Assembly (NCBI RefSeq): GCF_045679555.1
Contig: NC_092096.1
Location: 31,754,124 to 31,818,123, forward strand
Length of the DNA stretch: 64,000 nucleotides
From: Salvelinus alpinus
Lineage: Eukaryota > Chordata > Actinopteri > Salmoniformes > Salmonidae
Direction of reading: 5' to 3'
Shown: positions 2,222 through 54,088 of the stretch, piece by piece
How the letters are laid out: each line of letters starts with the position of its first letter
Position numbering within the stretch: position 1 is the first letter of the stretch
Translations under genes and position numbers: made by a program
The notes under the pieces: model-generated
What the model saw: only the letters and a program-made list of their open reading frames with translations
What the model was told of the DNA's origin: nothing
Databases searched by the model: none

Positions 2222-2249
2222 GGTTTTTGTACATCTCTGTATCACTGTG
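2222..2249 (-). other. Recombination signal sequence, 12-bp spacer
   Basis: Read on the minus strand, the V exon is followed directly by heptamer CACAGTG (2249-2243), a 12-base spacer (2242-2231) and nonamer ACAAAAACC (2230-2222). Heptamer and nonamer are at or next to consensus, so the site looks usable by RAG. A 12-bp spacer on a V segment is the kappa-type arrangement. Confidence 0.9.
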
Positions 2250-2752
2250 TGAATACTCCACCACTGTGGTAACTCTGACAGTAGTAATCTCCTGCATCTT
2301 CAGCCAGGACTCCACTGATGGTCAGAGTGAAGTCACTCCCAGATCCACTGCCACTGAATCTAGATGGAGTCCCAGACTGTAGGGTTTTAGACCAGTATAT
2401 TAGGAGTTTAGGAGCTCCTCCAGGTTTCTGTTGATACCAGTGCAAATAGTGTCCATTGCTGTTACTGTATACAGCACTGCTGGTCTTACAGCTGAGACTG
2501 ACTGAGTGACCCACTGAAACAGCTTTCACTGCAGGAGTCTGGGTCACTGTGACCTGGCCTCTGGACTCTGAAACAGAGATGCTATGTATTTTTAGAATGT
2601 AATTGTTCATTCATTTGTCCAGTACTGTATAAAATAATGACTTTATATTGTTAGGGTAATTTTCTGTAAATTATATCACCTTGAAAGCAGAGGGCAAGTG
2701 TCCAGATGAAGATGGTGATAGAAGTCATGGTTGTTGTGGGTTCTGTTGTCAT
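2250..2752 (-). CDS. Immunoglobulin light-chain variable segment (kappa-type RSS)
   Basis: Two-exon germline VL segment. The leader exon is 2680-2728 (ATG giving [16 protein letters not shown]) or, from an in-frame upstream ATG, 2680-2752. It ends CAAG|gtgata in phase 1. The V exon is 2250-2567 after acceptor 'tctgtttcag'. It holds the first Cys ('SVSLSCKTS'), the '[10 protein letters not shown]' Trp, a '[15 protein letters not shown]' strand D-E, and '[11 protein letters not shown]' with the second Cys. CDR3 runs straight into the RSS. There is no stop or frameshift, so it looks functional. The product would join J and C segments to form an antibody light chain in B cells. No J or C segment was found, so the segment is at a cluster edge or orphaned. 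Confidence 0.9.
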
Positions 2753-3767: not shown

Positions 3768-6700
3768 TCAGATTGGAATAATACTCAGGTTCAGTTGCGT
3801 CGTCCTCGTCTGACACTGCTCTGCTGTTTTCATGAAGCCCTGGTCAGCCATCATTTGAGAGATCTCTGTATAAATGTGTTCCAGTTCAGTGTTTCCCCTC
3901 AGGACCTCTTGGATTCTGTCACTGCCCCACATGTCAAGGAGGGCTTCAGTCTCCTCAATGCTCCAGGGGAGATCTAGTTCCCACGGTGATGGACAGCTGC
4001 CTGATTCTGGAGAGACTGAAAAAAAAAAATGTAAACAAAGGCCCAACGTTGATAGTATAACGTAAAAACAGTATTTACTATACAGAGATTAGGAGATTGT
4101 TTCTTTACCTGTTCCTTGGACTTGCCCACCTGGGACCTCTCCCATGTCTGTGGCGCCGTTTGATTCCTCAGCCAGAGAGTCACAGGATAGATACTTGTTC
4201 CCGAATATTTGCACAAACTGATCGTAGAATTTGCACTCCACTTCTTCCCCTCCAATCCTGGGAAAATAGAACATAACATTTGGTTGTTGATGCAATGCTT
4301 ATTCCTCATATCTGGTTAGTAATGAGCTTTGCTTATCTAACATGAGCATGGCAAACATCTGGCCATGAATACACAACTGTTCCATCAGTATGGAGTCTTC
4401 GTAATCAATTCACAATTATAAATAGTGGGTATCAATTTCAAATCCATATCTTTTCCCCCCATGGCTTACTGTTTGCTCTCGCAGAACTGGCGGAAGTTGG
4501 CCTTTAGCCGCTTCACTCTAGACTGGCACTGTTCGGCTGTCCTCAGGTAGCCCTCGTTGGCCATGGCCTGAGAGATCTCAGTGAAAATGTGTCTGTTTTT
4601 GGTGCAGCCCTTCAGATCCTCCTGGACCTCGTCACTCCCCCAGATACTGAGGAGGACCTGGGTCTCACTGTCGCTCCAGGGGAACTTGGAGCCGTCAGTT
4701 AAAGGACGGCTAGCTGAAGACAAAGACACCCAATGAACACATTGTTTACAATGGGAAGGGGGTTAGTTGAAGTAAGACAACTCATAGAACATTTAAAGGT
4801 ATGGTACGGCTTTGCTTTACCTTTCCTTTGGTCAACTTCAAGTGTAGACTCCCAGACAGCAGCTTCCTCATTGTCTAACGAATCTTCGGCCGAACTGTCA
4901 ACGTTGAGCTCCCTTGAGAAAATCTCCTCCATCTGGTCGTAGAACTTACATTCCCTTCTGAGGAAAGGGAAGATTAGACAATTTAATTTCAGTTGAATCA
5001 TCATATCCTCTGACCACATGTACTATGTAACAATAAGAGTGATAAAAACAAAACTGCAATTACATTGTTTACTAATGTGATGAAATTAAGTAAAGCATTG
5101 ATTTGTTGACTTAAAGATATTGCATCAATTTATATCCGATGATGTGGTGTAATTTATAAAGTAAATAACTAGACACGAAATGGTAGTTATAAATCCTTTG
5201 CATTCACTTGTCATGATGGAAGCTGGCCTTGAGTCGCTTGATGCGGGTGTGGCACTGCTCAGCCGTCCTGATGAACCCCTGGGCCGTCATCCTCCGTGAG
5301 ATGTATTCAAACACGTGTCTGTTCTTCAAGCAGCCGCGGAGGGAGAGCTGCACATGGTCCTCACCCCAGACCTCCAGCAGAGCCTGGGTCTCCCGATCGG
5401 ACCAGGGCATCTTTCTGCTGGACTCCGCCACAGCGTAACTGACTGAGCCCTGGCCTTCAAAAAAATATGTTTTTGGGAGGCTTTAGGTGGCTACTAAGTA
5501 CATTTTTGAAGATTGATTATGACTAGGGTCACGATTTTACCTGACCAAGATAAACAACTGTTGGCACTGACACAGGAAAAACACAGGGCCCTAATTACAT
5601 TAGACTTCAAGGGTAAGGATAATGAGGAGGCACCATACCCGTTTCCTGATCTGGTTCCTCAGTGGGATTTGGATTGAAGTCATCACACAAATCAACAATC
5701 TCTGCATTGAGGGAGAGCGTGTCGTTGCCTAGCACCGGCTCCAGGAACCTGTAGTATCTGAAGAGTAAGGGCTCCCCTCCGTTTCTGTAGGTACGACCAG
5801 AGGTAGAGGGAGGTGGAGAACAATGGGAGGTGAAGGGTTCATTTGTAACAGGTCCCAATTTAGGCACCATGACTCGCCTTACCCACAAATAATCTGTGCT
5901 TTCCACTTACGTCCTGCTGTGGAGACACCGTCGGTAGGTTTTCCTCAGTCGCTTAATCCTCGAGTGGCACTGCTCAGCCGTTTTGAAGTGCCCCATGGTG
6001 GCCAGCTTCTCTGCTATGTTGGCGAAAATGTGCCCGTTGCGGACGCAACCTCGGAGGCTCGCCTGGACCTCCTCGTTCCCCCACAGCTCAATGAGGGCCA
6101 GCGTCTCTGGCTCTGACCATGGGGTGTGTCTCATCCCATCAGCACCTGCTCCGGGAGACATATACATTGGAAACATCCAGTGTCTTCAGTGTTAACAGAT
6201 AACTGTCTGTATTACCACCGTACCTGTGTCCTGGTCTACTGTTTGATCGTCTCTTTCATCATACTCATCAATGGAGGCCGCTTCATGCCCAAGTATTCGC
6301 TCCAACTGATTGTAGAACTTGTATTCCAGTCCCTTTCTTCCACATCTAAGAAGACCAGACAGAAAAGGAAGCCATTTAAAAAATTGAGATGCAGAATTGT
6401 GGCTATGGGTTAGATTATACACTTATTTGTATGTTTCTGCAAATGAAAATCAACATAAAGGGTCCAATTTAAACCCGTTTTGTACACACATACTTTTTCC
6501 TGTCGTAGCACTGACGGAAGTTGTTCCTCATGGACTTGACTTTCCAACGACACTGCTCTGGGGTCTTGGAGTACCCTTGGTCATGCATCTTTTCTGATAT
6601 GTCCATGTAGATGGGGCCGTTGTGGACAAAGTCTCTCAGCACCCTCTGAACCTCGTCCTCCCCCCAGATGTCAATGAGGGCCAGGGTCTCAGGATCCGAC

Positions 6701-9033
6701 CACGAGCCTGGTGTGATCCTCTCAGAAGTGGTGTAGTTGTCCGCTTCTGTAGACTCTAAATACAAAACAGCCCAATAACATGAAAGTGTCCCTGTTAAGA
6801 CTTGGCAAAGGAACTTGTGTTGAAGGGACAGCAACTACAGTAGAACCAGTAGTTAAATACATAACAAACAGGGTTCAATCTGACATAGCCATGCTGGGTG
6901 TCATTAGAAAGTTTGCATAGTTTGAAATGAGCTGAACTCTTACCTTGAAGTGAGTCACTGTTTGATTCCTCTGATATGTCAATGGTCAAGTCTGTCACCA
7001 CTGTGCTGGTAGAGGGAGGCTGCCTCTCAAGTATTTGATCTAAAATATTGTAAAACTTAAAATCAACCTGCTCAGATCCAGATGAACTAGGAAGAGCACA
7101 GGTAGAGAGAGATTGCAAAATTAGAATCAAATCTGTAATCCAATTCACATTAGCAACATGACAAATGTATCAATAATAGAAGCTGAAATGCAATGACTAC
7201 CTGATGGTTTCCTGGCACTGCCGATAGCTGGCTTTCAATCGCTTTATCCTGGTGTGGCACTGCTCTGCAGTTCTGTAATAACCACGGATGTTGAGCTTTT
7301 CCGAAATCTCTGAGTATATGTGACCATTGTGAGGGCAGCGCTTCAGGTTCTGCTGCACAGTGTCGTCTCCCCAGAGCTCCAGGAGGATCACCGTCTCGCT
7401 GTCCACCCAGGGGATCTTCTTCCTGTCCTCTGGCACGCCCACTACAGCCTCTGGATGGATCAGAGTCAAAGGGAAAGAGTGTGTGAGAAAGATTGGCCCA
7501 ATCCCAAACCATCCACTCACCCTTATCCCTAAAACCTTGCTGACTTCGTATCACAGATATCAAAGAATGAGTCAGATATGCTAGGTTGAGTTTCTTCCCA
7601 GTCCTTCAAGTTGATCTTATTATAGTTTAGTAGTGAAAGAGGAACTGGTTAACCAGTAGAGAATGTGACCATACCCCTCTCCTGGGAAGAGTAAACAGAG
7701 CACTCGTTGTCTGCTGACCATGCTTCTCTAGACTCCATGTCAAGACAGTTTTCTGACACCTCCACGTATGAGGGAAGCTCATTCCCCAGTATTCTCTCCA
7801 GTAGGTCATAGAATTTGCATTCTACTTGCTCTCTGCCTTTCATGCTGCGTTTGGGGAAAGACAACAAAGCACATTTTCAAAACAAATCATTTTTCTGGCT
7901 CACATAGACAAAATGTAAGGCATCACAGGATATCAACCAAGAATGTAAAAGCCCGAGCATAGATCCATGTGGGACTCCCAATGCACAAAGAAAATGATTG
8001 TTAAACTATAACTGACATACTTGTTCTCGTAGCACTGTCGGAAACTCCGTTTCAGTCTTTTAACCCTCGTCTGGCACTGCTCTGCAGTCCGGATAAAGCC
8101 CTGGGCAGACATCTTTTGGGATATCACAGCAAAAATGTGCCCATTTCTATGCATACCCCTCAATTCCCTCTGCATTTTGTCATCTCCCCATATGTTGATT
8201 AGGGTGAGGGTCTCCAAGTCTGTCCAGGGAACACTTCTGGTTCCTTGAGTGGAAATAGAGACAAACACAAGAGCAGTGATCACTGATTATTAATCACTTG
8301 ATTGATTTAGATGAATCACATTGCACATTCCAAATGTAAAATCAGCTGTATTAATATTCAAGCAGGATGACCGCTTTATAAAGTGGAGGGCAACATGCTG
8401 CATGCAAACACACATTAGTCCCTTTCCCAAGAGCCAATATTATGTGATTTACCAAGAAAGGCACAATCGGACCATACCCATCTCTTCTAGACCAGAATGG
8501 CCAGGGAACTCCCAATCATCAGTGTCTTCTAGCTGGTCATCTGTCACCTCTTCAACATCATAGGTGACCTCAGGAACCGTTAAGGGGGACACATTCCCAA
8601 GTATTCGCTCTAGCTGGTCATAAAATTTACACTCCACTCTGTATATAGGGAATGGTTTCAGTGTGAGAATATAGACAAGCACATTCCAGGGATATTGTCC
8701 ATAACAAACAAAAATATAGAATAATTATAAATTATAAAGTATATATATATATTGCAAATGTTCTTCTGTAATGTACTCACTTCTGCTGGAGAGACTGACG
8801 AAAGCTGTTCTTCAATCGTTTGATCCTGGTCTGACACTGCTCTACAGTTCTCATGTAGCCTCTCTCAGACATGTTTTTGGAAATGAGAGTGAACACGTGG
8901 CGATTTTTGACACAGCCTTTCAGAACTCGCTGCACAGAGTCTTTTCCCCAAATGTCTATGAGGTTTAGAGTCTCATCATCCGACCAAGGGACTTTGGTGT
9001 CAATCGTCATGGGATAGGCAGCACCTTGGGGTT
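3768..9033 (-). repeat. Array of eight Myb/SANT-like exon modules with seven spacer exons
   Basis: Eight exons each encode one trihelix-type Myb/SANT-like domain (Pfam Myb_DNA-bind_4 class) with conserved Trp in 'PWSD' and 'WG'. Between them lie seven acidic spacer exons opening with variants of 'ECKFYDQLERILG'. Every Myb exon enters in phase 1 and leaves in phase 2; every spacer does the reverse. The pair is therefore a frame-neutral unit of about 500-950 bp. Module 4 has 'RWKVKSMRNNF' in place of 'TRIKRLKASF'. Module 8 loses the last helix and ends 'QTRTTQLNLSIIPI'. Confidence 0.85.
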
Positions 9034-11255
9034 CTGGACACAAAAGGGTAAGTAAAACTGTTATGCATTTTCTTTTACCATGTACTGTATTTCACATTTC
9101 ATTCAGAATGAACAGAGATTCCACACCTGTGTATTCTCCCCATATCGAGATGAGAGGAGAGTCACTAGAAGATTCGATATTCACTGGAGAATCACTGTAA
9201 AAGAGGAACACAGCAATGTACATAAAGCAGATTTAAAATTCCCTCCCCAAGGGGGAATGGAAAAATGGAATGACATCAAAGGCATGCAGGGAGACACCAA
9301 TATGAGCTACTTCAATATCAGTTCTTACTGAAACAGAGGTGAATCTGCTTGTCGTTTCCGGGGAACCTCCGAACTGTCGCTCATTTTCCTCTTCGAGGGC
9401 AGAGTCTGCCCTCTCCTACTCTCATTTGCTGAAAATGATGTTCCCTCCTCCACAATTTCATCTGTTTCAATTCTGTCCCTCTGTTCATTTCGCTTCTGTC
9501 TTGTTCTCTCAGATATCCTCCTCTTGCCAGTCTCCAGATTTGATTGGTCAATGGGAATCTCAATAATCTCTTCTTTATTTGGATGGTTTGAGATTGGTGT
9601 GGCCTCTTGCAGGTGTTTTTGAGTATGTTTGTCAGCAGTAGTCCCCAGTTTTGTGACCGGAGGGAGAGACAGAGAGGAGAGGATGCAGTCGTTCATAGGT
9701 AAAGAGCAAATGTCTGAGAGAAATAGAGAATGAGGCTTAGTAAATCACTGCGACTTCTCACCCGTTTAGTTACAGTCAAATAATACATTTATAATCAAAG
9801 CAAAGTGATACAGTAGCAAAGATCATTACTCATTAGTCATAATTATCTACTAAGCCAGCCTTACCTTTTACGTCAACGTGTCCAAGATTTCTGTGATGTT
9901 CAATTAAAGCCTTCATTTGCTCTGGCGGAGTCGCTGATTGCAAACACTCATCCAGAACTGAGGGGGCTCCATCAAGCCATGACACCATCTGAGAAAGAGC
10001 CCTTAGTCATTAGCAGTGGTAGGTCATTAGCAGTGGTAGGTTAAATTTTAATACAATACATGCTGTATTCTGAAGGCTAACTGAAGGCGATAGTCAAGGT
10101 GCGTATGTGAAATAAAATGTTGAGTTCAATGGTAGCACCTGTGCAAAGTCTGGTACAGGCAGCAGCTCCTCCAGTCTGGAGAGGAACTCCCACAGGAGAA
10201 TCTCCAGTGCTGTGTCATACTTCTGGCCGTACTGTACTGGGAACACCTCCTGGGGGAGTTAGAAGACATAGAAAAAAATGGAACCGTGAGTGAGAGGGGG
10301 GAGGGAGAGAGAGAGAGAGAGAGAGAGAAAATGAGGGAGAGTGTCATCATCTCACCAGGAAGAAGTGCTCTTTCACACCTGGGTCTTGTAGCAGGGTTTG
10401 GACCAGCTCCAAGAAATTGGCCCCGGAGTTTTCTACTTGTGCATCAGTCACCTGTAACATGCACACACACCGCGGGAGATGAATTACCCAAACTATGTGT
10501 GTATTTCTTCCTATTGATTAAATGTATTTTATGCACATGAGGCTGCTGAGGGGAGAACGGCTCATAATAATTGCTGGAATAAAGTGAATGGAATAACACA
10601 TGGTAACCATGTGTTTGATACCATTCAATTTATGCCATTTCAGACATTACTATGAGCCCGTTCTCCCCAATTAAGGTGCCACCAGCCGCCTGTGGGTTAA
10701 TGTGCATAGTAAATCACCCACACAGTGGTCCCTGGGTGTAGTAATGGAAGCTTTGATTCTGTCCAGGTGGGGCTGGATGGTCTCAGGGTCGACTTGGTGA
10801 TCACCACGACACAACTCCAGAACCAGCTATGGTCACAAAAAAAGTATTTCAACGCTATCATCTGCGCTCTTGATACACTATCACCAGTGCGCTACTGGTT
10901 TACTGGTTCAACTATCAACCACTGTTCGACAGATTGGAGGAAACTAATATGGTTGTTAGCAATAGCTAAATGTACAAAAATAAACTACATTTCAGTCACT
11001 AAACAAATCCATCTGCAGAAACCCATGCACACACATCCACACACGTGCTAACCCTGGCTCTCAGTCCCAGGATGAGTTGGGCCCTCTGCCGGTAACTCAG
11101 CAGCTCTGGAACCATCTCTGTCACCGAGGTGACAAACTCCTCCAGCATCCCATAATGCATGACAAGTCCTTTCTGCACAACTTGCCACATAGCAGCTGAC
11201 AGAAGTTGCAGGGGTGGGGCCAAAAGCCGTAAATAAGAAATTGATAGAAGGGGAT
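3768..11255 (-). CDS. TIN2 N-terminal domain protein with eight tandem Myb/SANT-like modules
   Basis: Minus-strand gene, 22 coding exons visible, about 1353 codons. Exons 5'-3': 11053-11255, 10722-10826, 10356-10451, 10139-10249, 9865-9988, 9329-9713, 9127-9194; then Myb exons 8781-9033, 8021-8243, 7201-7450, 6494-6755, 5911-6145, 5208-5442, 4470-4713, 3768-4006, alternating with spacer exons 8478-8638, 7675-7844, 6944-7086, 6224-6345, 5639-5784, 4821-4957, 4109-4257. All junctions keep frame. The first five exons resemble the TINF2 N-terminal TRFH-like domain ('AAMWQVVQKGLVMHYG', 'LILGLRARLVLEL', 'EILLWEFLSRLEELLP'). Exon 9329-9713 is basic ('GKRRISERTRQKRNEQRDR'), a likely nuclear signal. 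Each Myb module has 'PWSD.ET', 'IWG' and 'RTAEQC.TRIKRLK'. The start is unresolved: either an unfound upstream exon ending in phase 1, or an ATG at 11295 reading into this exon. Function at telomeres is inferred only. Confidence 0.8.
10139..11255 (-). other. TIN2 N-terminal (TRFH-like) domain exons
   Basis: Four consecutive exons give about 170 residues resembling the helical N-terminal domain of TIN2 (TINF2), the shelterin subunit that by established knowledge bridges TRF1, TRF2 and TPP1. Similar blocks, by recollection of human TINF2: 'WQVV...H' then a short helix and 'YR', a GL+A+.V.EL helix, and a late 'LL.E.L..LE..LP' helix. No internal stop. The resemblance is by eye and should be confirmed with the TINF2_N profile. 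Confidence 0.75.
10536..10694. mobile_element. Short hAT-type MITE, diverged copy
   Basis: About 159 bp with imperfect inverted ends ('catgaggctgctgagggg' and 'ccagccgcctgtg'). It is clearly related to the better copy at 37613-37780, sharing 'ggctcataataat', 'ccatgtgtttgata' and 'cccgttctccccaatta'. It sits in an intron of the TIN2-Myb gene. The target duplication is not clean. Confidence 0.65.
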
Positions 11256-12932
11256 CTGTGAGAGAGAAATAATTATACTCACACATTAAAAACACTACTA
11301 AGATCTACCAGCTCATTGGGTATTTGCTGTTTCAAAGACATTACGTCATAGGACTGACTGGCCAACATTAGTGTAAGGGAGCCCTCTACTGGCCCTTCAA
11401 GACAAAAACAATGCCACATTATTTATTTAGCCACCCCATGCTTATACTGTAATTTGAGAATATGAATTAGTAGTGAGCCTGTGTTTAGTGAACATATGGG
11501 ACACGTAATCTTAATTTTTGCCTTTAAAAATTGCACATAGCCTAAACTAAATATGAGCAGCAGGATAAACGTTCACGAGGATGGCACCAAAATGCAGATT
11601 CATTACAGACTCAACTCAATAATGCTGCATTCAGGTCGGCACGAGGAAACTCGGAAAGTTCCACTATATACACGCTGTATATAAAGCAATGATCGCAAAC
11701 AGATGTGTATAAGAAACGTAGGCCAAACACTGCCCAGGTGGTGAAAGAAAATCATTATTTCAATAGTCACGCACCTTTGTAATTTTCTGTACGGCTTCTT
11801 TCCATTGCTTGTTTCCAATTTTCAAAAAATATCCGACAGTGTCGCAAATATATCTAAATAACAATGTTATTTAGCTTGTGGTAGTAGTGTCAACGCAAAC
11901 CAAAATGCTCTGACGCTATCTTGGTCAAATGTGGATGTATTTCTAATAAAAAACGTGCAGAATTATCATAATCATTCTGCAGGACGAAGTAGATATCTTT
12001 GCGCGCATAAATCATTCAGGAATATTAGGAGAGACTGCTTCCCTCAGTTTGAACCTGGATGACCGAAAACAAAGATTCTGGTCTAATCCGCTTTAGTCCG
12101 GATCACATGAAGCCTGATTCCCCCAATGGTTGTGGAGAACCACAATAGCCCGATTTTGCTAATGAAGGCCACTAGGCGGAGTCACCGCCACTTCCGGGTT
12201 GATTTTAAGGCCTATGGAGATATAGGCCAAAACAGCCATATAGTTATCCATATATCATGTATCCATATTTATCCATATAATCATCCATATATGGCTAATC
12301 CCCTTTAAACAATCAGTTGTGTGTGTGAATTACACCCATGACACTCGAGGGGGGGGGGGGGGGGGGGGGTGTCCATTTACAAACTGTGATACTGTATTTA
12401 CTGTCTTTGTTTTGGCCTTCTCCCTAAATTTCGTTTTTCTTTCATCACAACTGAGGAGGAAGGGTGTAGCCACAGCAACATTGCCAGTCTTCAGGGGACG
12501 CTTGCGAAACAGACCAAACAGACCACGCCGAGGTTAGGGATTTGAGAAGTCAATGAGAGAAGTGAAAAATGATTCCTGAGTTGTTCATTTTCTCGAAATC
12601 TAAAGACACAACCTAGATTCGAGCCAATGCATTAAGTAGTTGAACATGTTATTAATCTAACCTCGTGAAATTCACAAACTGACACTATATATTGAAGGAA
12701 TGCCTTTGATTTGACTGCCCGCACCTGCGCAGTTTGGCACGAGTGACCGTGACGTCTTTCTAAGCATGCGCTTTGCTAGCCAACGTCGTCATGACATTGC
12801 CCAGTGCCGATCGGGGAATTCTATTGGAGAAGCAGTTTTAGCCTATCTTCATACTGTACTGTCTTTGTTGTAGCGGTAGCCTGTGGTCCACTTTCCTAAA
12901 CCAGGAACAACAGTCGCGCAAGTCATTGCGAG
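11256..12932. promoter_or_regulatory. Divergent spacer between the TIN2-Myb and PARP12-like genes, probable promoter near 12720-12775
   Basis: Head-to-head spacer of about 1.7 kb. It presumably holds the 5' end of the minus-strand gene and the promoter of the PARP gene. About 160 bp before the PARP ATG is a CpG-richer patch with a CRE-like TGACGTCT (12750-12757) and an NRF1-like GCATGCGC (12764-12771). A poly-G tract of about 20 bases lies at 12350-12370. A half-ISRE-like 'gaagtgaaaa' is near 12560; no full interferon-response element was recognised. Promoter status is inferred from position and motifs. Confidence 0.4.
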
Positions 12933-24900: not shown

Positions 24901-27900
24901 TAATCCGTTCACCCACTCTTTGTCTCACAAAGACACGGCGGTTAGAACCAAAAATCTCCAATTTGTACTCCAGACCAAAGAACAGATTTCCACTGGTCTA
25001 ATGTCCATTGCTCGTGTTTCCTGGCCCAAGCAAGTCTGTTCTTATTATTGGTGTCCTTTAGTTGTGGTTTCTTTGCAGCAATTTGACCATGAAGGCGATT
25101 CACACATTCTCCTCTGAACAGTTGATGCTGAGATGTGTCTGCTACTTGAACTCTGTGAAGCATTTATTTGGGCTGCAATTTCTGAGGCTGGTAACTCAAA
25201 TGAACTTTTCCTCTGCAGCAGAGGTAACTGGGTCTTCCATTTCTGTAGCAGTCTTCATGAGAACCAGTTTCATCATAGCACTTGATGTTTTTTGCGACTG
25301 CACTTGAAGAAACTTTAAAAGTTATTGAAATGTTCCGTATTGACCGACCTTCATGTCTTAAAGTAATAATGGACTGTCGTTTCTCTTTGCTTATTTGAGC
25401 TGTTCTTGCAACAAAGTAGGGCTATCTTCTGTATACCACCCCTACCTTGTCACAACACTACTGATTGGCTCAAACGCATTAAGAAGGAAAGAAATTCCAC
25501 ACATTAACTTTTAAGAAGGCACACCTGTGAATTGAAATGCATTTCAGGTGACTACCTCATGAAGCTGGTTGAGAGAATGCCAAGTGTGTGCAAAGCTGTC
25601 ATCAAGACAAAGGGTGGCTATTTGATATATTTTGATATGTTTAACACTTTTTTGGTTACTACATGATTCCATATGTGTTAATTCATAGTTTTGATGTCTT
25701 CACTATTATTCTACAATGTAGAAAATAGTAAAAATAAAGAAAAACCCTTGAATGAGTAGGTGTTCTAAAACCTTTGACCGGTAGTGTACGCCCCTCAAAT
25801 TCTATTACTAAAATCCAGCAGCAGATAGCCTAGATGTCAGAGATGTTGAACAGGAACTGTAAGGATACTGGTTCAAATAGTTCATCTTGTAATTACAGAC
25901 ATGACACAAAAAAACAAAACATATGGTACTGTAAGGATGGTCAGACGACGTCCTGTCTTTGTTTCAACTGTGGACGCACAAGCTGCAAGAAGCAGGTAAT
26001 GTATGAATGGGATTGGACTGAGACTGGGTATATGTTCTGAATCAAACCATTTCTATATTTACCTAATAGATGACATAGTTCTAATAATTTTTTCTTGTAT
26101 ATGAAGGTTATTTTTCATATGTCATTTCAGGAGAAATGGACCACGCAATTTCAGAGCTGTTCCTGGATCTTGGGACAAGTCTGCGATACCTGACATTGGA
26201 TACAAGGTTACTTGTTTACATGTGATTCTACGGCTTTGGATTGCAGGGAAGTTTAACATTGCCTTTCATTTGGTTTCAGCTGTGACAACCATTTTGTTTT
26301 CTCCTGCAGACAGTCACTCTTCTGAGTTCCGACAGGGACTATCAGAAGGTCCAGGAACTTTTCAACAAGACCATGAGGTGCGTCCAAATCACCAGCATCG
26401 AGAGGGTCCAAAACAGGGACCTCTGGGAAGTCTTCCAGTGGTATGTTTACATCAACTCTCACACACAATCCTAGCGTGTTACTTCCAAAATACTAAGTAA
26501 ACTCTGGGTTGAACAAGATTATGGGTAAGCAGTGTTAGGAATTTAAAACCTGGTCAGGGTGTGTAGCCATGAGATACAACATATAAGGTGACCATCTCCT
26601 ATATTTAAAGGTTTATTAGACAAAGAGAGACGTAGACAGACATATGCATATGAGAAGACAGACATATTCATGTAAGAGGTCTAGAGCAAATCAGAGGGGA
26701 GGGCTGACCTTAATACTCTTGCCTATCTTTGTTCACTGCCAAAGCATTAAATCAGGGCGGAGACCTTGGGGTTGAATAGACTATACATTTGAAACATCGT
26801 AATTGCTTAAAGACACCCATAAACGATTTTATGTCTCAGGGGCCCAGATACCAGTTACTGAGAGCTGCTTTAAGGTGACCTCTGGCCTTACAGAGGGTAC
26901 CTAGAGGCCACATTTCAATAGGGAATAACCATCTGAAAATATCAATCTTAACAGCAGCTAATGGTCAATTCTTAATGGTCATTTTTTCTTTCTCAGGAAA
27001 AGAGATTTAATGAAGAAAAACAATGGAGGTCAAAACAGCAAGGAGCTACATCTCTTCCACGGAACGGACCCAAAACACGTAGACTCCATTTGCAGAGATA
27101 ACTTTGACTGGAGACTGTGTGGAACCAACGGAACTGTGTACGGCGAAGGTACCTCATGTTAACCAACTGTCAGAAGTGTAGTCAGATTTTAAAAGCAGTC
27201 ATTATCTCACTATAGTCTGTCATTTTGTTTTACTGATGATCTTCTCTGTTTGTTTTAGGGAGTTACTTTGCCAGGGATGCCAAGTACTCACACAGCTACA
27301 CCAGCCACTCAGGAGTGAGGTCCATGTTTGCTTGTCAGGTGCTTGTTGGCGACTACACACAGGGGAACTCGGGGCTCCGTCGCCCCCCTCCAAAAGGCGA
27401 AGGAAGCCCGACTCTCTATGACAGCTGTGTGGACAATGTCCTGAACCCATCCATATATGTGGTGTTTGAAAGGCACCAGGTTTACCCAGAGTTCCTCATC
27501 AAATACAATGATAGCGTCATGAACTGGCCCACTTCGGCTCCAGCTCCACCCAAAACTGTCTCTATCCAATCCACTTCCTTAACCCCAACATCCAACCGGA
27601 TTCAAGCCACAGCTGCTGTCACCCCATCGAAGAGAGTTCCATCCACTTTGAATCCATCTAAAACTGCAGCCACCACTTCCTCAAATCCAACCCATTCTCG
27701 TCCCACTTCACGTTTTGTCCATCAGTCTCTCCCAAAACCTGCCCAAGCCCCATTGATATTCATTCAATCTCCAGTCCTCATGAAGCCAACCACAAGTTCT
27801 CAATTAGTGGATATCACCCTAGGCCCAGATTTCACTCCCTCATTTGCAAACCTCTCTCACACACTCACTACCCCAGCCAGTAACCTCTCTCGTACGCTCA

Positions 27901-29705
27901 CTACCCCAGCCAGTAATCTCTCTCGTACGCTCACTACCCCAGCCAGTACACCCTCTCGTACGCTCACTACCCCAACCAGTACACCCTCTCGTACGCTCAC
28001 TAGCCCAGCCAGTACACCCTCTCGTACGCTCACTACCCCAGCCAGTACACCCTCTCGTACGCTCACTAGCCCAGCCAGTACACCCTCTCGAACGCTCACT
28101 ACCCCAGCAAGTACACCCTCTCGTACGCTCACTACCCCAGCCAGTACACCCTCTCGTACGCTCACTAGCCCAGCCAGTACACCCTCTCGTACGCTCACTA
28201 GCCCAGCCAGTACACCCTCTCGTACGCTCACTAGCCCAGCCAGTACACCCTCTCGTACGCTCACTAGCCCAGCCAGTACACCCTCTCGAACGCTCACCAC
28301 CCCAGCCAGTACACCCTCTCGTACGCTCACTAGCCCAGCCAGTACACCCTCTCGTACGCTCACTACCCCAGCCAGTACACCCTCTCGTACGCTCACTAGC
28401 CCAGCCAGTACACCCTCTCGTACGCTCACTAGCCCAGCCAGTACCCCCTCTCGTACGCTCACTACCCCAGCCAGTACCATCTCTTATACGCTCCCTACCC
28501 CAGCCAGTACCCTCTCTTATACGCTCCCTACCCCAGCCAGTACCCTCTCTCATACACTCCCTACCCCAGCCAGTACCCTCTCTTATACGCTCCCTACCCC
28601 AGCCAGTACCCTCTCTCATACACTCCCTACCCCAGCCAGTACCCTCTCTTATACACTCCCTACCCCAGCCAGTACCCCCTCTCCTACACTCACTACCCCA
28701 GCCAGTACCCCCTCTCCTACACTCACTACCCCAGCCAGTACACCCTCTTATACACTCACTACCCCAGCCAGTACCCCCTCTCCTACACTCACTACCCCAG
28801 CCAGTACCCCCTCTCCTACACTCACTACCCCAGCCAGTACCCCCTCTCCTACACTCACTACCCCAGCCAGTACCCCCTCTTATACACTCACTACCCCAGC
28901 CAGTACCCTCTCTTATACATCAACGACCCCAGCCAGTACCCCCTCTCCTACACTCACTACCCCAGCCAGTACCCCCTCTCCTACACTCACTACCCCAGCC
29001 AGTGCCCCCTCTTATACACTCACTACCCCAGCCAGTACAGCCTCTCGTAGACTCGCTCCCCCAGCCAACACCGCCTCTCGAAGACTGGCTCCACAACCCC
29101 CCACCCCCTTTCCTACACTCACGCCCTCACCCAGTACCCCCTCTTATACATTCACTACCCCAGCCAGTACCCCCTCTCCTACACTCACTACCCCAGCCAG
29201 TGCCCCCTCTTATACACTCACTACCCCAGCCAGTACAGCCTCTCGTAGACTCGCTCTCCCAGCCAACACCGCCTCTCGAAGACTGGCTCCCCAACCCCCC
29301 AACCTCTCTCCTACACTCACTCCCTCAGCCAGCACCCCCTCTCGCACACTTTCCCCTTTAGCTGGCACCCTATCTCTGGCTCACACCCGCTTAACGACCA
29401 CTACTCGCACTCTCTCTGCCAGCAGTACCTCTCACCCACTATCCCCTTCATACTCATTGAGCACACCTTACCACACACTTTTTCACTCATCATACTCCCC
29501 CACTTACACACAAACTCCCTCACGCACTTCCCCCTCCTCGTCAAGCAATTCTCCAAGCACACTCTCCCCCTCAGCAAGCAACCCATCTCGGGTGTTCTCT
29601 CCCTCGACAGGTGCCTTCACTGGATCCCCTCCTGAGTCACTGTACAGTGTTCCAACAGCTGGAAGGAGGGACACCAAAGAAAAAAACAAGTGCCTTCTGC
29701 AATAA
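12933..29705 (+). CDS. parp12: PARP12-like mono-ADP-ribosyltransferase with CCCH fingers, WWE domains and a repetitive tail
   Basis: Twelve exons, about 1360 aa: 12933-13207, 13674-13809, 21420-21723, 22976-23026, 23314-23440, 23764-23929, 24036-24156, 25899-25995, 26131-26206, 26310-26440, 26997-27148, 27259-29705. All junctions have GT/AG and keep frame. Residues ~70-260 hold CCCH-type fingers (e.g. '[11 protein letters not shown]', '[11 protein letters not shown]', '[19 protein letters not shown]'). Two WWE domains follow (~262-393; '[11 protein letters not shown]', '[12 protein letters not shown]'). The catalytic domain (~452-650) has 'HLFHGTD' (His), 'GSYFARD' (Tyr) and 'VYPEFLIKY', matching the H-Y-I triad of PARP12-type mono-ARTs. 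Relatives PARP12 and ZC3HAV1 bind RNA and act in interferon responses. The ~700-residue Ser/Thr/Pro tail, largely a 33-bp coding minisatellite, is absent from human PARP12. Start: first ATG, aligning with the paralogue at 30491. Confidence 0.9.
14449..14685. mobile_element. Candidate MITE with TGTAACGG/CTGTTACA ends
   Basis: A 237-bp block bounded by 'tgtaacggatgtga' and 'gttatactgttaca', which are partial inverted repeats (TGTAAC/GTTACA). It is GC-rich inside relative to its AT-rich surroundings. I recall similar blocks from salmonid genomes but cannot verify a family name. No coding capacity. Confidence 0.5.
14800..15110 (-). mobile_element. Possible solo LTR (minus orientation)
   Basis: Read on the minus strand this block has a TATA-like 'ctataaaggcagag' (around 14930) and an 'attaaagtctcatttt' poly-A-signal-like run about 75 bases further on, an order typical of an LTR. 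Clean ends and a target duplication were not found, so this stays tentative. Confidence 0.25.
15860..16290 (-). mobile_element. Truncated Tc1-like element
   Basis: Starts after a TA with 'cagtgcatttggaaag' and 'tattcagaccccttgac', the terminal repeat of the element at 31183-32696. It carries the minus-strand end of a transposase gene ('gcagcgattacagcc', 'ttctctgcagatcc') and breaks off near 16290. Confidence 0.8.
18650..19070 (-). pseudogene. Relic of an SGNH/GDSL-hydrolase-like reading frame
   Basis: On the minus strand, around 19040-19010, the DNA encodes '[15 protein letters not shown]', resembling the block III G-ND motif of SGNH hydrolases. About 100 codons later comes '[17 protein letters not shown]', resembling the block V D-x-x-H motif with catalytic Asp and His. 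Two in-frame stops lie between the blocks, so it is dead. Such domains occur in esterase-bearing ORFs of some LINEs and in fish genes of unknown role; I cannot tell which source applies. It lies antisense in the PARP intron. Confidence 0.5.
19627..20687. mobile_element. Tc1-like element, internally deleted
   Basis: Terminal inverted repeats 'cagtaccagtcaaaagttt' and 'aaacttttgactggtactg' flanked by TA. Length 1061 bp against about 1.5 kb for a full element. The interior keeps a degenerate minus-strand transposase ('gaccaaaggacagatttcc'). The family is the same as the foldback element at 24275. Confidence 0.9.
22385..22590 (-). mobile_element. LINE 3' end, short fragment
   Basis: Contains 'cctttatttaaccaggtagg' and 'caacctggccaagataaagc', matching the 3' end of the LINE at 43731-46248. 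Severely 5'-truncated, minus orientation, in the intron between PARP exons 3 and 4. Confidence 0.8.
24275..25786. mobile_element. Foldback Tc1-like element with ~560-bp inverted arms
   Basis: The ends 'cactaccagtcaaaag' and 'ctttgaccggtagtg' are flanked by TA. Unlike an ordinary Tc1 element, the inverted similarity continues for roughly 560 bp from each end (24275-24845 against 25235-25786, complementary), leaving a loop near 24850-25235. The loop holds a minus-strand transposase remnant ('[20 protein letters not shown]'). It lies in the intron between PARP exons 7 and 8. Confidence 0.85.
27850..29350 (+). repeat. 33-bp coding minisatellite in the PARP12-like tail
   Basis: About 45 tandem copies of a 33-bp unit encode an 11-residue motif (consensus [11 protein letters not shown]). 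The first half carries '[16 protein letters not shown]' variants, the middle 'LSYTLPTPA', the last part 'PSPTLTTPA'. As 33 is a multiple of three, copy-number change cannot break the frame. Long open frames in other phases and on the opposite strand are by-products. Confidence 0.95.
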
Positions 29706-37869: not shown

Positions 37870-40800
37870 AAATTGTCAACAGGTTGAATTTTGACCGGCA
37901 AATTGTTTAACTCCTGCACTCTAGATGATGTGATAGTAGCAGATGTGTCAGAAGTAGTGCTCGATGTGGAGTGGTGAGACCCAGAGAGTGTGGAAGAGTC
38001 TGTGTAAGTGGGGGAGTATGATGAGTGAGAAAGTGTGTGGTAAGGTGTGCTCAATGAGGTTGAAGGGAATAGGTACTGCTGGCAGAGAGAGTGCGAGTAG
38101 CTCTTTCTGAGAGGCTGTGACCCTGAGAGGGTGTGTCAGTTGAACGGAAAGTATGCAAGAAGTGGTGCTGGCAGGGGTAGTGAGTGTGCAAAAGGGATTG
38201 CTGGAGCGAGTGAGTGTGCGAGTGTGGGCAGTGCCAGGGCTAATGAGTGTGTGAGAGGGGGCACTGGCTGAGGGAGTGAGTGTGCAAGAGGAGGCACTGA
38301 CTGAAGGAGTGAGTGTGCAAGAGGGGGCACTGGCTGAAGGAGTGAGTGTGTGAGAGGGAGCACTGGGTGAGGGAGTGAGTGTGTGAGAGGGAGCACTGGG
38401 TGAGGGAGTGAGTGTGCGAGAGGGGGCACTGGCTGAAGGAGTGAGTGTGCGAGAGGGGATGCTGGGTGGCCAAGTGGGTGTATAAAATGGGGTACTGGCT
38501 GTACGAGAGGGGGTACTGGCTGGGGGAGGGAGTGTAAGAGAGGGGGTACTGGCTGGGGTAGTGAATGTATAAGAGAGGCTGCTGGGTGGGGTAGTGGGTG
38601 TATGAGAGGGGGTGCTGGTTTGGGTAATGAGTTTATGAGGGAGTTTGCAGAATAAGGGAGTTTAAGACCAATTAGCTTGGCCTAGGGTGGTATCCAACAA
38701 CTGAGAACTTGAGGCTGGCTTCATGAGGACTGCAGACTGACTGAATCCCAATGGAGTTCGGGCAGGTTTTGGGAGACGTGAAGGGGGAAGAGAATCGGTT
38801 GGATTAGAGAAAGTGGTGGCAGCTTGAGATGGACTCAAAGTGTAGCAGCAGCTGCTGCTTGAATCCGGTTGGATGTTGGGTATTGGACTATGTAAGTGGA
38901 TTGGATAGAGACAGTTTTGGGTGGAGCTGGAGCCGAAGAGGACCAGTGCATGACGCTATCATCATATTTGATGAGGAACTCGGGGGAACACCTGGTTCGT
39001 TTTAAACACCACATATATGGATGGGTCCAGGACATTTTCCACACAGCTGTCATAGAAAGTGGGGGTTCCCTCGCCTTTTGGAGGTGGAGGTACGATGGAG
39101 GTACGAGTTCCCTCGTGTGTAGTCACCAACAACCACCCGACAACAAACATGGACCTCACTCCTGAGTGGCTGCTGTAGCTGTGTGAGTACTTGGCATCCC
39201 TGGCAAAGTAACTCCCTAAAACAAACAGAGAAGATCATCAGTAAAACAAAATGACTGACTATAATGAGATCATGACTGCTTCTAAAATCTGACTACACTT
39301 CTGACAGATGGTTAACATGAGGTACCTTCGCCGTACACAGTTCCGTTGGTTCCACACAGCCTCCAGTCGAAGTTATCTCTGCAAATGGAGTCTACGTGTT
39401 TTGGGTCCGTTCCGTGGAAGAGATGTAGCTCCTTGCTCTTTTAACCTCCATTGTTTTTTTTTCACCAAATCTCTTTTCCTAAAGAAACAGGGAGGAAAAC
39501 AGCTGCTTCCCCATAATCTTGTTCAAGCCAGAGTTTACTTAGCATTTTGGAAGTAACACGCTAGGATTGTGTGTGAGAGTTGATGTAAACATACCACTGG
39601 AAGACTTCCCAGAGGTCCCTGTTTTGGACCCTCTCGATGCTGGTGATTTGGACGCACCTCATGGTCTTGTTGAAAAGTTCCTGGACCTTCTGATAGCCCT
39701 TGTCAGAACTCAGAAGAGTGACTGTCTGCAGGAGGGGAAAACAAAATGGTTGTCACAGCTGAAACAAAAAATTTAAAACTAACCTTCCTATAAGCCTAAG
39801 CAGAATAACCACATGTAAACAAGTGACCTTGTATCCAATATCAGGCATGGCAGACCAATTCTGAGAGGGGTTGCATGGTCTATTTGTCCTGAGGATAAAT
39901 ATAAAAGAGAACATGACAGTCAACACTAAGAAAATAAGTAGCTCAGTTGAATACCTTTAGTTTTTTTGCGCCATGTCTGTAATTACAAGAATAACTATTT
40001 GAAACATGTCTGTTGCAAATTAAACATATTTTGCACAAGAGTGTTGTGTGTTACCTCTGAAACTCAGCTCATAAGACTGCTGGCCTGCAGTGAACTTCAC
40101 CACAGCACTTTGATCCTCCTGGTACCTTTTCTCAAGGTCTTCACTGGTGACGGACGACAGTCTCTGTTTGTGATTTATAGGAAAAAAACTCAAATTCAAG
40201 GGGAACAACAGTTTACTCTATATTGTCCTCGTAACACGTCAGCCTGTTTGAGTGTTTCACACCACTTACAATGGATGCGTACTGGACCCATTTGCCGTAC
40301 TCGTCCTCCCAGAACCACGCCCACTCTGTGGTCAGGACGTACATTGGCTCGGTCACAGAGGTGGATGGAAGGTGAACTTCACTGAATCCGTGGCTCATGA
40401 CTTCAAAATGTACACACTTGGATCCCTCACTGTGAAGCCATAAGAAAATGTAAATGGTAAAGCAATCAATCCCCATGACCAATTCCCATTACAAGAATGT
40501 ACTTCATTCACACTGCAAAATATTTGTATCTAGTTTAATATGACATAACATACCGCACCTTTGTATCTTAGAATGGTCACAGAAGTCTCTCTAGATTGCT
40601 TCGTTTTTCTGGCAGGGCAAACGAAGTCTGACCGTTCTTCACTTCCCAATTGTAGGGCCTTTTATAGTGGATGCTCCAGCATTAATCTGAACAGACATTA
40701 GGTTTATATAACAGACGTTACATTTATGTAACAGTCTGTCATGAGAGACTTGTGTTAGCCAGAAGGACAACAGAATATCCTGCCATGGCCTCCATTCACA

Positions 40801-43730: not shown

Positions 43731-46248
43731 TTTTTTATTGTACCTTTATTTAACCAGGTAGGCTAGTTGAGAACTTCTCATTTGCAACTGCGACCTGGCC
43801 AAGATAAAGCATAGCAATTCGACACATACAACAACACAGAGTTACACATGGAATAAACAAAACATAGTCAATAATACAGTAGAACAAAAAGAAAACAAAA
43901 AGTCTATATACAGTGAGTGCAAATGAGGTAAGATAAGGGAGTTAAGGCAATAAATAGGCCATGGTGGCGAAGTAATTACAATATAGCAATTAAAACACTG
44001 GAATGGTAGATGTGCAGAAGATGAATGTGCAAGTAGAGATACTGGGGTGCAAAGGAGCAAGATAAATAAATAAATACAGAATGGGGATGAGGTAGGTAGA
44101 TAGATGGGCTGTTTACAGATGGCCTATGTACAGGTGCAGGTAGTTTGACAGCTGGTGCTTAAAACTAGTGAGGGAGATATGAGTATCCAGCTTCAGAGAT
44201 TTTTGAGTTCGTTCCAGTCATTGGCAGCAGAGAACTGGAAGGAAAGAGAACCAAAGGAGGAATTGGCTTTGGGGGTGACCAGTGAGATATACCTGCTGGA
44301 GCGCGTGCTACGAGTGGGTGCTGCTATGGTGACCAGTGAGCTGAGATAAGGTGGGGCTTTACCTAGCAGAGACTTGTAGATAACCTGTAGCCAGTGGGTT
44401 TGGCGACGAGTATGAAGCGAGGGCCAGCCAACGAGAGAGCGTACAGGTCGCAATGGTGGGTAGTGTATGGGGCTTTGGTGACAAAACGGATGGCACTGTG
44501 ATAGACTGCATCCAGTTTGTTGAGTAGAGTGTTGGAGGCAATTTTATAGATGACATCACCGAAGTTAAGGATCGGTAGGATGGTCAGTTTTACGAGGGTA
44601 TGTTTGGTAGCATGAGTGAAGGATGTTTTGTTGTGATATAGGAAGCCAATTCTATATTTAATTTTGGATTGGAGATGCTTAATGTGAGTCTGGAAGGAGA
44701 GTTTACAGTCTAACCAGACACCTAGGTATTTGTAGTTGTCCACGTATTCTAAGTCAGAGCCGTCCAGAGTAGTGATGCTGGACGGGCGAGCAGGTACGGG
44801 CAGTGATCGGTTGAATAGCATGTATTTAGTTTTACTTGCGTTTAAGAGCAGTTGGAGGCCACGGAAGGAGAGTTGTATGGCATTGAAGCTCGTCTGGAGG
44901 TTAGTTAACACAGTGTCCAAAGAGGGGCCAGAAGTATACAGAATGGTGTCGTCTGCGTAGAGGTGTATCAGAGAATCACCAGCAGCAAGAGCGACATCAT
45001 TGATGTATACAGAGAAGAGAGTTGGCCTGAGGATTGAACCCTGTGGCACCCCCATAGAGACTGCCAGAGGTCCGGACAACAGGCCCTCCGATTTGACACA
45101 CTGAATCTGTCTGAGAAGTAGTTGGTGAACCAGGCGAGGCAATCATTTGAGAAACCAAGGCTGTCGAGTCTGCCATTAAGAATGTAGTGATTGACAGAGT
45201 CGAAAGCCTTGGCCAGGTCGATGAATACGGCTGCACAGTAATGTCTCTTATCGATGGCGGTTATGATGTCGTTTAGGACCTTGAGCGTGGCTGAGGTGCA
45301 CCCATGACCAGCTCTGAAACCAGATTGTATAGCGGAGAAGGTACGGTGGGATTCGAAATGATCGGTAATCTGTTTGTTAACTTGGCTTTCGAAGACCTTA
45401 GAAAGACAGGGTAGGATAGATATAGGTCTGTAGCAGTTTGGGTCAAGAGTGTCTCCCCCTTTGAAGAGGGGGATGACCGCGGCAGCTTTCCAATCTTTGG
45501 GAATCTCAGACGATACAAAAGAGAGGTTGAACAGGCTAGTAATAGGGGTTGCAACAATTTCGGCAGATGATTTTAGAAATAGAGGGTCCAGTTTATCTAG
45601 CCCAACTGATTTGTAGGGGTCCAGATTTTGCCGCTCTTTCAGAACATCAGCTATCTGGATTTGGGTAAAGGAGAAATGGTGGGGGCTTTGGCGGGTTGCT
45701 GTGGAGGGTGCCGGGCAGTTGATCGGGGTAGGGGTAGCTAGGTGGAAAGCATGGCCAGCCGTAGAGAAATGCTTATTGAAATTCTCAATTATAGTGGATT
45801 TATCAGTGGTGACAGTGTTTCCTAGCCTCAGAGCAGTGGGCAGCTGGGAGGAGGTGCTCTTATTCTCCATGGACTTTACAGTGTCCCAGAACTTTTTTGA
45901 GTTAGTACTACAGGATGCAAATTTCTGTTTGAAAAAGCTAGCCTTAGCTTTCCTAACTGCCTGTGTATATTTGTTCCTAACTTCCCTGAAAAGTTGCATA
46001 TCACGGGGGCTGTTCGATTCTAATGCAGAACGCCACAGGATGTTTTTGTGCTGGTCAAGGGCAGACAGGTCTGGAGTGAACCAAGGACTATATCTATTCC
46101 TAGTTCTACATTTTTTGAATGGGCATCCTTATTTAAGATGGTGAGGAAGGCACTTTTAAAGAATAGCCAGGCATCATCTACTGACGGGATGAGGTCAATG
46201 TCATTCCAGGATACCCCGGCCAGGTCGATTAGAAAGGCCTGCTCGCGG
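43731..46248 (-). mobile_element. 5'-truncated LINE with reverse transcriptase
   Basis: A 2.5-kb non-LTR retrotransposon inserted between 'gggggaaacag' and 'gtacaaaag' of the Tc1 element. Its 3' end ('taaataaaggtacaataaaa' on the minus strand) abuts the left join. No endonuclease domain is present, so it is 5'-truncated. The same 3' end recurs at 22385-22590. Confidence 0.92.
44363..45999 (-). pseudogene. LINE reverse transcriptase, frameshifted
   Basis: Two overlapping frames. The first (45999-44968) has 'YKSVGLDKLDPLFLK', 'WKAAAVIPLFKGGD', 'YRPISILPCLSKVFE', 'QSGFRAGHGCTSA' and 'AAVFIDLAKAFDSV'. The second (45142-44363) continues with 'VPQGSILRPTLFSVYIND' and the 'LYADDTILY' catalytic motif, then the thumb. 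A frameshift near 45100 separates them. Jockey/Rex-like RT by motif order; inactive. Confidence 0.9.
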
Positions 46249-52300: not shown

Positions 52301-54088
52301 CATGGAGGATGTTGTTGGTACGTCTACATGGAGGATGTTGTTGGTACGTCTGCATGGAGGATGTTGTTGGTACGTCTACATGGAGGATGTTGTTGGTACG
52401 TCTACATGGAGGATGTTGATGGTGCGTCCACATGGAGGATGTTGTTGGTACGTCTACATGGAGGATGTTGTTGGTAGGTCTGTATGGAGGATGTTGTTGG
52501 TACGTCTACATGGAGGAAGACTCATGGGCAGAAGTGTCTAGTGACAGGAGTCGCTAGTGCGCGATAAGACAGCGATATCCCTGCCGGCCAAACCCCCCCC
52601 TAACCCGGATTACGCTGGGCCAATTGTGCGCCGCCCCATGGGTCTCCCGGTCGCGGCCGGCTGCGACAGAGCCTGGACTTGAACCCAGAATCTCTAGTGG
52701 CACAGCTAGCACTGCGATGCAGCGCCTTAGACCACTGCGCCACTCGGGAGGCCCCAGATTAGGTTATTTTATACCCAGAAATGAGGGTGTGTTTGTGCTT
52801 GCTTGCTGTATTGATTTGTGTGTGTGTGGGTCTGTGTCTGTGTGTGTATATGTGTGTGTTTGTCATTGTGTCTGCACCAACCTGTATCTCTCTTCCTGCA
52901 GCGTCTGTGTGATGAAGCTGTAGTCACTCTTGAACTGGCTTTTCAGTGACTCCATGTCCTCGGCCAGCTGTGCCTGGGCCTCCCTAATCTCCCTGACCTC
53001 CTCCAGCACCTCCCCCAGCCTCCCCTGAGAGTCCGACCTCCCCGGCCCACCCCCTGACCCCAACCCCGACCCCCCCGCCGGGTTCCCGTTGGAGTCTGCC
53101 GACACAGAGGTCCCCGTGGAACATTCATCGTCGCTGGGGTACTTGGCCTTGGCAATCGTGGTGGCGCTGCCGCTCAGCGCCCGGGCCCCGGCTCCGCCTT
53201 CCGCCTGGAGCCCCGCCCCCGTCTCCATGGAACTCTTCATGTGGGCGATGTTGTCGGCGCTGCCGAACTTGTTGCGGATGAGGTTGGCGAACTCCCGCGA
53301 CTTGTTGAAGAAGAAGGGGGGCGAGAGGGAGACCCCGGGGCCGATGGTCTTGACCTTGTCCATTGCCGGGTTGCGCGCGCTGGCCGAGCTGACGTCCCGC
53401 AGGCTGCCGTCCTTTTGGCCCTCCTTGCCCCCCTCCCCCCGGGAATCCCTGGGCGGGTGCTTGGCCCCGTTGGCCTCCTCCTTCATACGGCGGTGGTACT
53501 GCTCCAGCTTCCTCTGCAGCTGGGCGATGCTGTGGGCAGACTTCTGGTTCTTCTTCTCAAACACCTGGCAGACCCACAGCAGAGGCAAAGGGTCAAATTA
53601 AAAGATACTGCTATAATTGCGGCATTTTCTTTAAAAAGTGGCTTGTAAACATTCAGCACACTTGGCAGATGCAGTTATGTAGCATCATAAAAGGACAAAT
53701 CAGTGGGATGTAATTGGACTGACCTGCCGTATGCGTGCCACCTGCTGCTTGTCAGCGTTGTTGACCAGTTTGAGGTACTCTGCCACGTTCTGGTCCCTGG
53801 CTGTCTGTTCCACCTTGATCTGCTCTGTCACCTTGGGGGAGATCAACGAGTCAACACAGAGACTAACACACAGGTGGGCCCGTGCTCTTGCTCTCTCTTT
53901 CTCCCTCTCACACACACACTCACCTTGAGTATCTTCTGCTGCAGGCTGTCGATGGCCAGACGGCCCTTAGTGAAGTCCAGGCCCACGCCCCCCTCGCCCC
54001 CGTCAGACACCAGGTTGGACTCAGAGCCCCCCCGCCGCATCGGTACCGGGAGGCTGAGGATGTTGTTACCATCGCTGCTGCGCTCCGC
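49350..54088 (-). CDS. tmcc3: TMCC-family transmembrane and coiled-coil protein, tmcc3-like, 5' end missing
   Basis: Five exons: 53924-54088, 53724-53831, 52882-53564, 49778-49913, 49350-49652; about 464 aa, all in frame. Opening coiled coil '[20 protein letters not shown]' and '[16 protein letters not shown]'; then '[20 protein letters not shown]', a Ser-rich linker, a second coiled coil ('[20 protein letters not shown]', '[19 protein letters not shown]') and two C-terminal membrane helices ('[19 protein letters not shown]', '[18 protein letters not shown]') before 'ALERMLLPH*'. By family knowledge TMCC proteins are ER-membrane proteins. The C-terminus fits TMCC3 better than TMCC1 or TMCC2 by recollection. 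The first exon here could start at its own ATG ('MRRGGSESN') or continue from an unseen exon. A 26-bp minisatellite fills the 3-kb intron before 49913. Confidence 0.88.
50055..52515. repeat. 26-bp minisatellite, about 94 copies
   Basis: Unit of 26 bp, 'ggtgcgtccgcatggaggat' plus 'gttgtt'. The first ~1.05 kb is mostly the 'gcgtccgc' variant, 51090-51660 is mixed, and the last ~0.85 kb mostly 'acgtctac'. A gttgtt/gttgat variant recurs throughout. It lies inside a TMCC intron. Since 26 is not a multiple of three and all frames lack stops, the long frames on both strands here are artefacts. Confidence 0.97.
52537..52754 (-). mobile_element. tRNA-derived SINE, minus orientation
   Basis: On the minus strand it begins 'ggcctcccgagtggcgcagt' followed by 'ggtctaaggcgctgcatcgc' and 'gggttcaagtccaggctc' (A and B boxes of a Leu-like tRNA), then a GC-rich body. 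It sits next to the 26-bp minisatellite. Confidence 0.85.

Follow-up and report, generated by a model that had tools for sequence, protein, structure and literature searches.

The 64,000-nucleotide stretch of Salvelinus alpinus DNA analysed here (contig NC_092096.1, positions 31,754,124 to 31,818,123; "the window" below) carries one predicted minus-strand gene, at 11805-3768, in which an N-terminal domain of the TIN2 type (Pfam TINF2_N, TRFH-like) continues in frame through a basic region into an array of Myb/SANT-like modules. Judged from sequence, the two parts are truly fused, which is unusual; of wider importance is the finding that a TIN2-type head sits on many array proteins of this one fish genome. 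Along with the in-frame splice joins of the window gene, the analysis shows a head and a motif, the latter encoded by exon E6, that are common to many predicted genes, mostly zinc-finger genes. We consider it fairly probable that the product is a fish nuclear DNA-binding protein, with a TIN2-descended TRFH-like head and a trihelix array on acidic linkers, that would recruit partners and would not act as a shelterin scaffold.

The joined frame comprises 22 exons and 1335 codons, with no inner stop and no frameshift, and runs in the order TINF2_N domain, basic region, seven complete modules and one truncated module (Table 1). We infer the exon joins from sequence and homology; all 21 introns are GT-AG, with phases compatible across the joins, which confirms the single reading through head, basic region and array proposed in a preliminary description of this region. 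That description placed the gene at 3768..11255, of which the first position is indeed the end of the stop codon, but the second is the start of exon 2; a predicted ATG exon lies upstream (E1, 11805-11775) and ends in the phase required by the exon at 11255. E1 is the least certain exon, because no profile covers it. Splice sites were scored with a leave-one-out model and ranked against all 465 GT and 582 AG of the region; the median rank is within the top 4% for donors and for acceptors alike, and most sites are good and a few weak (poorest ranks 24% for a donor and 42% for an acceptor). Each complete module is built of two exons, a Myb exon running from phase 1 to 2 and a linker exon running from phase 2 to 1.

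It seems quite unlikely to us that this region instead holds two adjacent genes or isoforms, namely a short TIN2-like product ending in E6 and a Myb-array product starting from an ATG in M1. Reading through the E6 donor does lead to an immediate stop (open reading frame 9325-9744), M1 does contain an in-frame ATG, and two partial arrays elsewhere in the genome (loci L039 and L040) have no TINF2_N matches. However, no polyadenylation signal AATAAA or ATTAAA occurs between 9340 and 9034, E6, E7 and M1 can be spliced together in compatible phases, and at two further loci (L037 and L038) a single open reading frame contains the E6 motif together with two Myb modules; L039 and L040, moreover, look decayed, as described below.

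Pfam Myb_DNA-bind_4 matches eight stretches of the whole protein (E 9.3e-141), the number given in the preliminary description; only seven of these are complete modules, since M8 breaks off before helix 3 is complete and has no linker exon. The same end is present in the copy of M8 at L039 (248/248 bases aligned, 99.6%). Directly past the M8 stop there is, by eye, another acidic frame of about 40 codons (3768-3660, minus strand), which may be due to chance. The predicted fold of M2 has four helices (mean predicted local distance difference test score, pLDDT, 89.8), and the best match to the modules is the plant trihelix factor GT-1 (2ebi, 2jmw; 28% identity), which has a single-module context. 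The modules are predicted trihelix (GT-1-like) domains and not telobox Myb domains, in keeping with the earlier suggestion that their Myb class differs from that of TRF1 and TRF2: classical Myb (PF00249), to which we take the TRF1/TRF2 Myb domains to belong, reaches 11.9 bits in the window protein, below its cut-off of 24.4. TRF1 and TRF2, like the window gene, combine a TRFH-type and a Myb-type domain in one protein, but they have one telobox Myb where the window gene has eight trihelix modules.

The third helices are near-identical among modules. The proportion of nonsynonymous differences (pN) is below that of synonymous differences (pS) in 21 of 21 pairs among M1-M7, and likewise in all seven pairs with M8, which was excluded from the 21-pair test; synonymous divergence (dS) was not computable for 10 of the 21 pairs owing to saturation. 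These comparisons show an array kept under selection, strongest in the third helix, although such pairs speak for past and less for present selection. We find it barely credible that the gene is decaying or not expressed: its truncated M8, and the stops and lost exons of the sister copies L039 and L040, would fit such a state, but they stand against an uninterrupted 1335-codon frame, sound splice sites and the uniform result of the 21 pairs. SUMO-interacting motifs in the linkers were considered and dropped (strict pattern, 0 matches vs. 1.5 expected from shuffled sequence); IVDLCDD in K5 resembles such a motif by eye only. The window holds no further TINF2_N or Myb copies, all 83 tblastn matches falling within the gene. 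Among viral contigs no relatives of the Myb alignment or of exon E2 were confirmed, and Rfam gave no match at gathering scores.

The head, taken as E1-E5 alone, matches TINF2_N at E 1.1e-40 and its TRFH-like domain is complete; with Myb_DNA-bind_4, both profiles named for checking in the preliminary description were matched. Human TIN2 (5xyf, E 2.2e-12) is the sole PDB sequence matching the first part of the gene at E<=10, with identities of 21/57 and 22/66 residues over two aligned stretches, and a search of NCBIfam with the TINF2_N part gave nothing meaningful. As reported in an excerpt of PMC7707837, the donor site of exon 5 is altered by the human TINF2 variant c.604G>C, and loss of that exon from the mRNA causes a frameshift at L170; human exon 5 must then end in phase 1, and the end of exon 4 must lie near codon 169-170. 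The E4/E5 join of the window gene falls at the residue pair aligned with human Q169/L170, and its E5 ends in phase 1. Two splice positions therefore agree between the genes, which supports descent of the head from TINF2 exons.

Two sites known from human TIN2 were compared. F152 and E153 are needed for binding of TPP1 and TRF2, and their loss abolishes both (excerpt of PMC8262337); W130-E131 of the window gene align with this pair, and L29 aligns with human A15, these being TPP1-contact residues according to the same excerpt. The TRFH-binding motif of TIN2 is given as FxLxP in an excerpt of PMC5309834. No match to [FY]xLxP occurs in any of the 1335 residues of the window gene, and the corresponding place reads CILSS. 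The Y variant, YxLxP, is presumably a form of the same TIN2 motif. LF.F, a loose pattern for the dyskeratosis patch, is absent from the window protein. The window gene is like TIN2 (TINF2) in its N-terminal domain and two splice positions, and unlike it in having no [FY]xLxP, an added DNA-binding array and membership of a large family. Shelterin TIN2 itself carries no domain for binding DNA.

This family was surveyed in the same genome (2.37 Gb). There are at least 125 TINF2_N exon matches over the cut-off, and at least 60 of them are first-exon places, including that of the window gene; the counts are lower bounds, 150 of 196 candidates having been scored. Twenty other loci were fetched, and two more (L037 and L038) were picked for nearby Myb matches, giving 22 fetched loci. 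Several TRFH exons lie on one strand in 20/20, and 19/20 have C2H2 zinc-finger patterns (4 to 17) further downstream on that strand, although several of these stretches overlap a neighbouring copy, whose zinc fingers may be included in the counts. The pattern matched once over all 20 opposite strands and once over seven window tiles, both strands taken together. In nine of the 20 loci the zinc fingers and the post-TRFH motif are read in a single open frame (each locus with its own frame; some are near-copies), and Pfam confirmed zf-C2H2 in both one-frame loci scanned (L015 and L011). At L010 the zinc fingers are spread over three short frames, and this locus may be decayed. No Myb matches were found in the fetched stretches of the 20 loci.

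The post-TRFH motif [IVL]LS[STPA]L, which reads DCILSSLSLPP in the window gene, is present in 22/22 fetched loci. The zinc-finger genes thus counted (19/20) share this motif and TRFH exons E2-E5 with the window gene, and have a C2H2 array where it has Myb modules. The TPP1-contact place reads W-E in 13 of the 22 as well as in the window gene, W-Q in three and G-G in six; since zinc-finger loci are among those keeping W-E, the pair is no marker of the window gene.

The idea of the preliminary description that a shelterin TIN2 had here gained DNA binding finds no support in these counts, with at least 60 listed first-exon places and zinc fingers following in all but one of 20 fetched loci. What would suggest a telomere link for the window gene is its head alone, and a simple telomere reading is weakened because [FY]xLxP is lost and the Myb class is trihelix. 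We accordingly judge very improbable a fish shelterin TIN2 that binds telomeric DNA through this array without TRF1 or TRF2. The strength of the TINF2_N match and the alignment of W130-E131 with F152-E153 (PMC8262337, excerpt) speak for it, as do telomere pull-downs in several non-mammalian vertebrates that, according to an excerpt of PMC5309834, either missed TIN2 and TPP1 or showed no enrichment of them, a result that leaves the wiring of fish shelterin open. Against this stand the size of the family, the retention of W-E in 13/22 loci, a leucine at the place of human A15, the trihelix class with its low PF00249 score, and the loss of a motif that another locus keeps. That locus, L028, reads YLLSP at the start of its post-TRFH motif, where neither anchor residue of [FY]xLxP is present in the other 21 fetched loci; L028 has the W-E pair, and no zinc-finger or Myb match lies within its fetched 10 kb. 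Because YLLSP is kept and no array was seen in 10 kb, L028 is a better candidate for shelterin TIN2, and the window gene would then be a paralog that lost the [FY]xLxP site. An excerpt of PMC5425123 counts a TIN2 among the components of zebrafish shelterin.

The joining of this head to Myb modules also occurs outside the window in the same genome, as the layout of L037 (C26) and L038 (C29) indicates: TRFH exons are followed by one open frame containing the motif and two Myb_DNA-bind_4 modules, and then by a zinc-finger frame (6 patterns in L037, 13 in L038). These loci share TRFH exons, E6 motif and module type with the window gene; they differ from it in having two modules in one exon and then zinc fingers, whereas it has eight modules, the complete ones each intron-split, and no zinc fingers were seen. 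The 548-codon frame of L038 also has YHLNP ahead of the motif, in a probable intron part. Because the exon structures differ, we lean towards separate capture of the Myb arrays in the window gene and in L037/L038. After removal of two identical rows (L025 and L026), the TRFH tree has 21 rows and requires two changes of Myb label, and a single Myb clade is not rejected (approximately unbiased test, p-AU 0.27).

L039 (C11:31725000-31734000) matches M3-M8 and L040 (C37) matches M3-M7, at about 90-98.5% DNA identity. Both start at the place of module 3 and have stops and truncated or lost exons, and neither shows a TRFH or TINF2_N match within the stretch fetched; their appearance is that of partial copies in decay. 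At G000:C22:260000-280000, TINF2_N and Myb_DNA-bind_4 matches are intermixed, with Myb upstream of a TINF2_N exon on the same strand.

If the window gene does encode a partner-recruiting nuclear factor, as we favour, its TRFH-like head would serve to dock a peptide, either from a partner or from the protein itself, and the array, with its near-identical third helices, would grip copies of a single short DNA motif that lie in clusters. Head and array together would bring the partner to repeated DNA, telomeric repeats being one possible target among many; DNA binding, a shared motif and recruitment are properties that we infer for this protein. The mode of action would be like that of SCAN- or KRAB-headed array factors, which serve as the comparison for head-plus-array working. 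ZSCAN20 and ZSCAN29 are SCAN-Myb/SANT-zinc-finger proteins that join a protein-protein head to Myb/SANT-like and zinc-finger arrays; the window gene has TINF2_N as its head, and SCAN is not among the 16 Pfam families listed for its protein at E<=1.

The factor might still bind TPP1 or TRF2 and take components of shelterin to interstitial repeats or to repeats away from telomeres. The W-E pair kept as in L028 and the complete TRFH-like domain are consistent with this, and a repeated target would match the near-identity of the third helices; but the human A15 place is not kept (though L028 and other loci differ there too), the lost [FY]xLxP place suggests an altered partner set, and on balance we think it unlikely. 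Wider in scope, and also rather unlikely, is the proposal that in this fish lineage the TIN2 TRFH-like domain has become the common recruiting head of dozens of zinc-finger and trihelix array proteins, which would parallel the KRAB and SCAN factors of mammals, bringing TPP1-POT1-type or TRF2-type partners, or self-association, to non-telomeric repeats, with the eight-module gene as the extreme case.

If the family acts as its anatomy suggests, a supposedly telomere-specific domain would have been reused repeatedly to head vertebrate DNA-binding factors, and a direct test would be opened of what TRFH-like domains recruit off telomeres. The window gene would also offer a natural eight-fold array for the study of multivalent DNA recognition. 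For annotation, the warning would be that a TINF2_N match in fish does not equal a TIN2 call. A literature search returned no match for the term "TINF2_N" and no description of a TINF2_N-Myb or TINF2_N-zinc-finger gene, with the limit that work on metazoan shelterin evolution may treat fish TIN2; such architectures may already be displayed in protein databases.

Table 1. Predicted exons of the TINF2_N-Myb gene, in order of transcription (window coordinates).
Exon	Content	Position	Strand	Basis or remark
E1	start exon: ATG, MERSRTENYK, ends phase 1, donor GTGCGT	11775..11805	-	least certain exon
E2	first part of TINF2_N / TRFH-like helices	11053..11255	-	gene model, Pfam, PDB match
E3	TINF2_N	10356..10451	-	gene model, Pfam
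E4	TINF2_N, contains W130-E131	10139..10249	-	gene model, Pfam, alignment to human TIN2
E5	end of TRFH-like region, ends phase 1	9865..9988	-	gene model, alignment
E6	family motif DCILSSLSLPP at the degenerate YxLxP place; basic stretches follow	9329..9713	-	gene model, locus comparison
E7	short linker exon	9127..9194	-	gene model
M1	Myb/SANT-like module 1, helices 1-3	8781..9033	-	gene model, Pfam
K1	helix-4 segment and acidic linker 1	8478..8638	-	gene model
M2	module 2	8021..8243	-	gene model, Pfam, predicted fold
K2	helix-4 segment and acidic linker 2	7675..7844	-	gene model
M3	module 3	7201..7450	-	gene model, Pfam
K3	helix-4 segment and acidic linker 3	6944..7086	-	gene model
M4	module 4, helix 3 most diverged among M1-M7	6494..6755	-	gene model
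K4	helix-4 segment and acidic linker 4	6224..6345	-	gene model
M5	module 5	5911..6145	-	gene model, Pfam
K5	helix-4 segment and acidic linker 5	5639..5784	-	gene model
M6	module 6	5208..5454	-	gene model, Pfam
K6	helix-4 segment and acidic linker 6	4821..4957	-	gene model
M7	module 7	4470..4713	-	gene model, Pfam
K7	helix-4 segment and acidic linker 7	4109..4257	-	gene model
M8	truncated module 8 and stop codon	3768..4015	-	gene model, Pfam

Elsewhere in the window, an exon resembling an immunoglobulin light-chain V exon by eye lies directly downstream of the gene (2242-2610, minus strand); this exon, the Tc1-type repeats and the size of the genome are in keeping with a bony fish, perhaps a salmonid. 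PARP12-like pieces (zf-CCCH_PARP12, winged helix, PARP), probably of tandem genes, extend over 12900-37020 on the plus strand; at 27850-29350 (plus strand), an 821-codon open frame, whose first part encodes the last portion of a PARP catalytic domain, contains a 33/99-bp minisatellite with some 45 copies of the 33-bp unit. Open frames at 38800-40490 (minus strand) resemble PARP12-like genes by eye, on the opposite strand. A second minisatellite, of 26 bp (50066-52517, about 94 copies, 96% matches), separates two exons of a minus-strand Tmemb_cc2 (TMCC-like) gene. A reverse transcriptase fragment (RVT_1, 7e-12) lies at 44366-45142 (minus strand).

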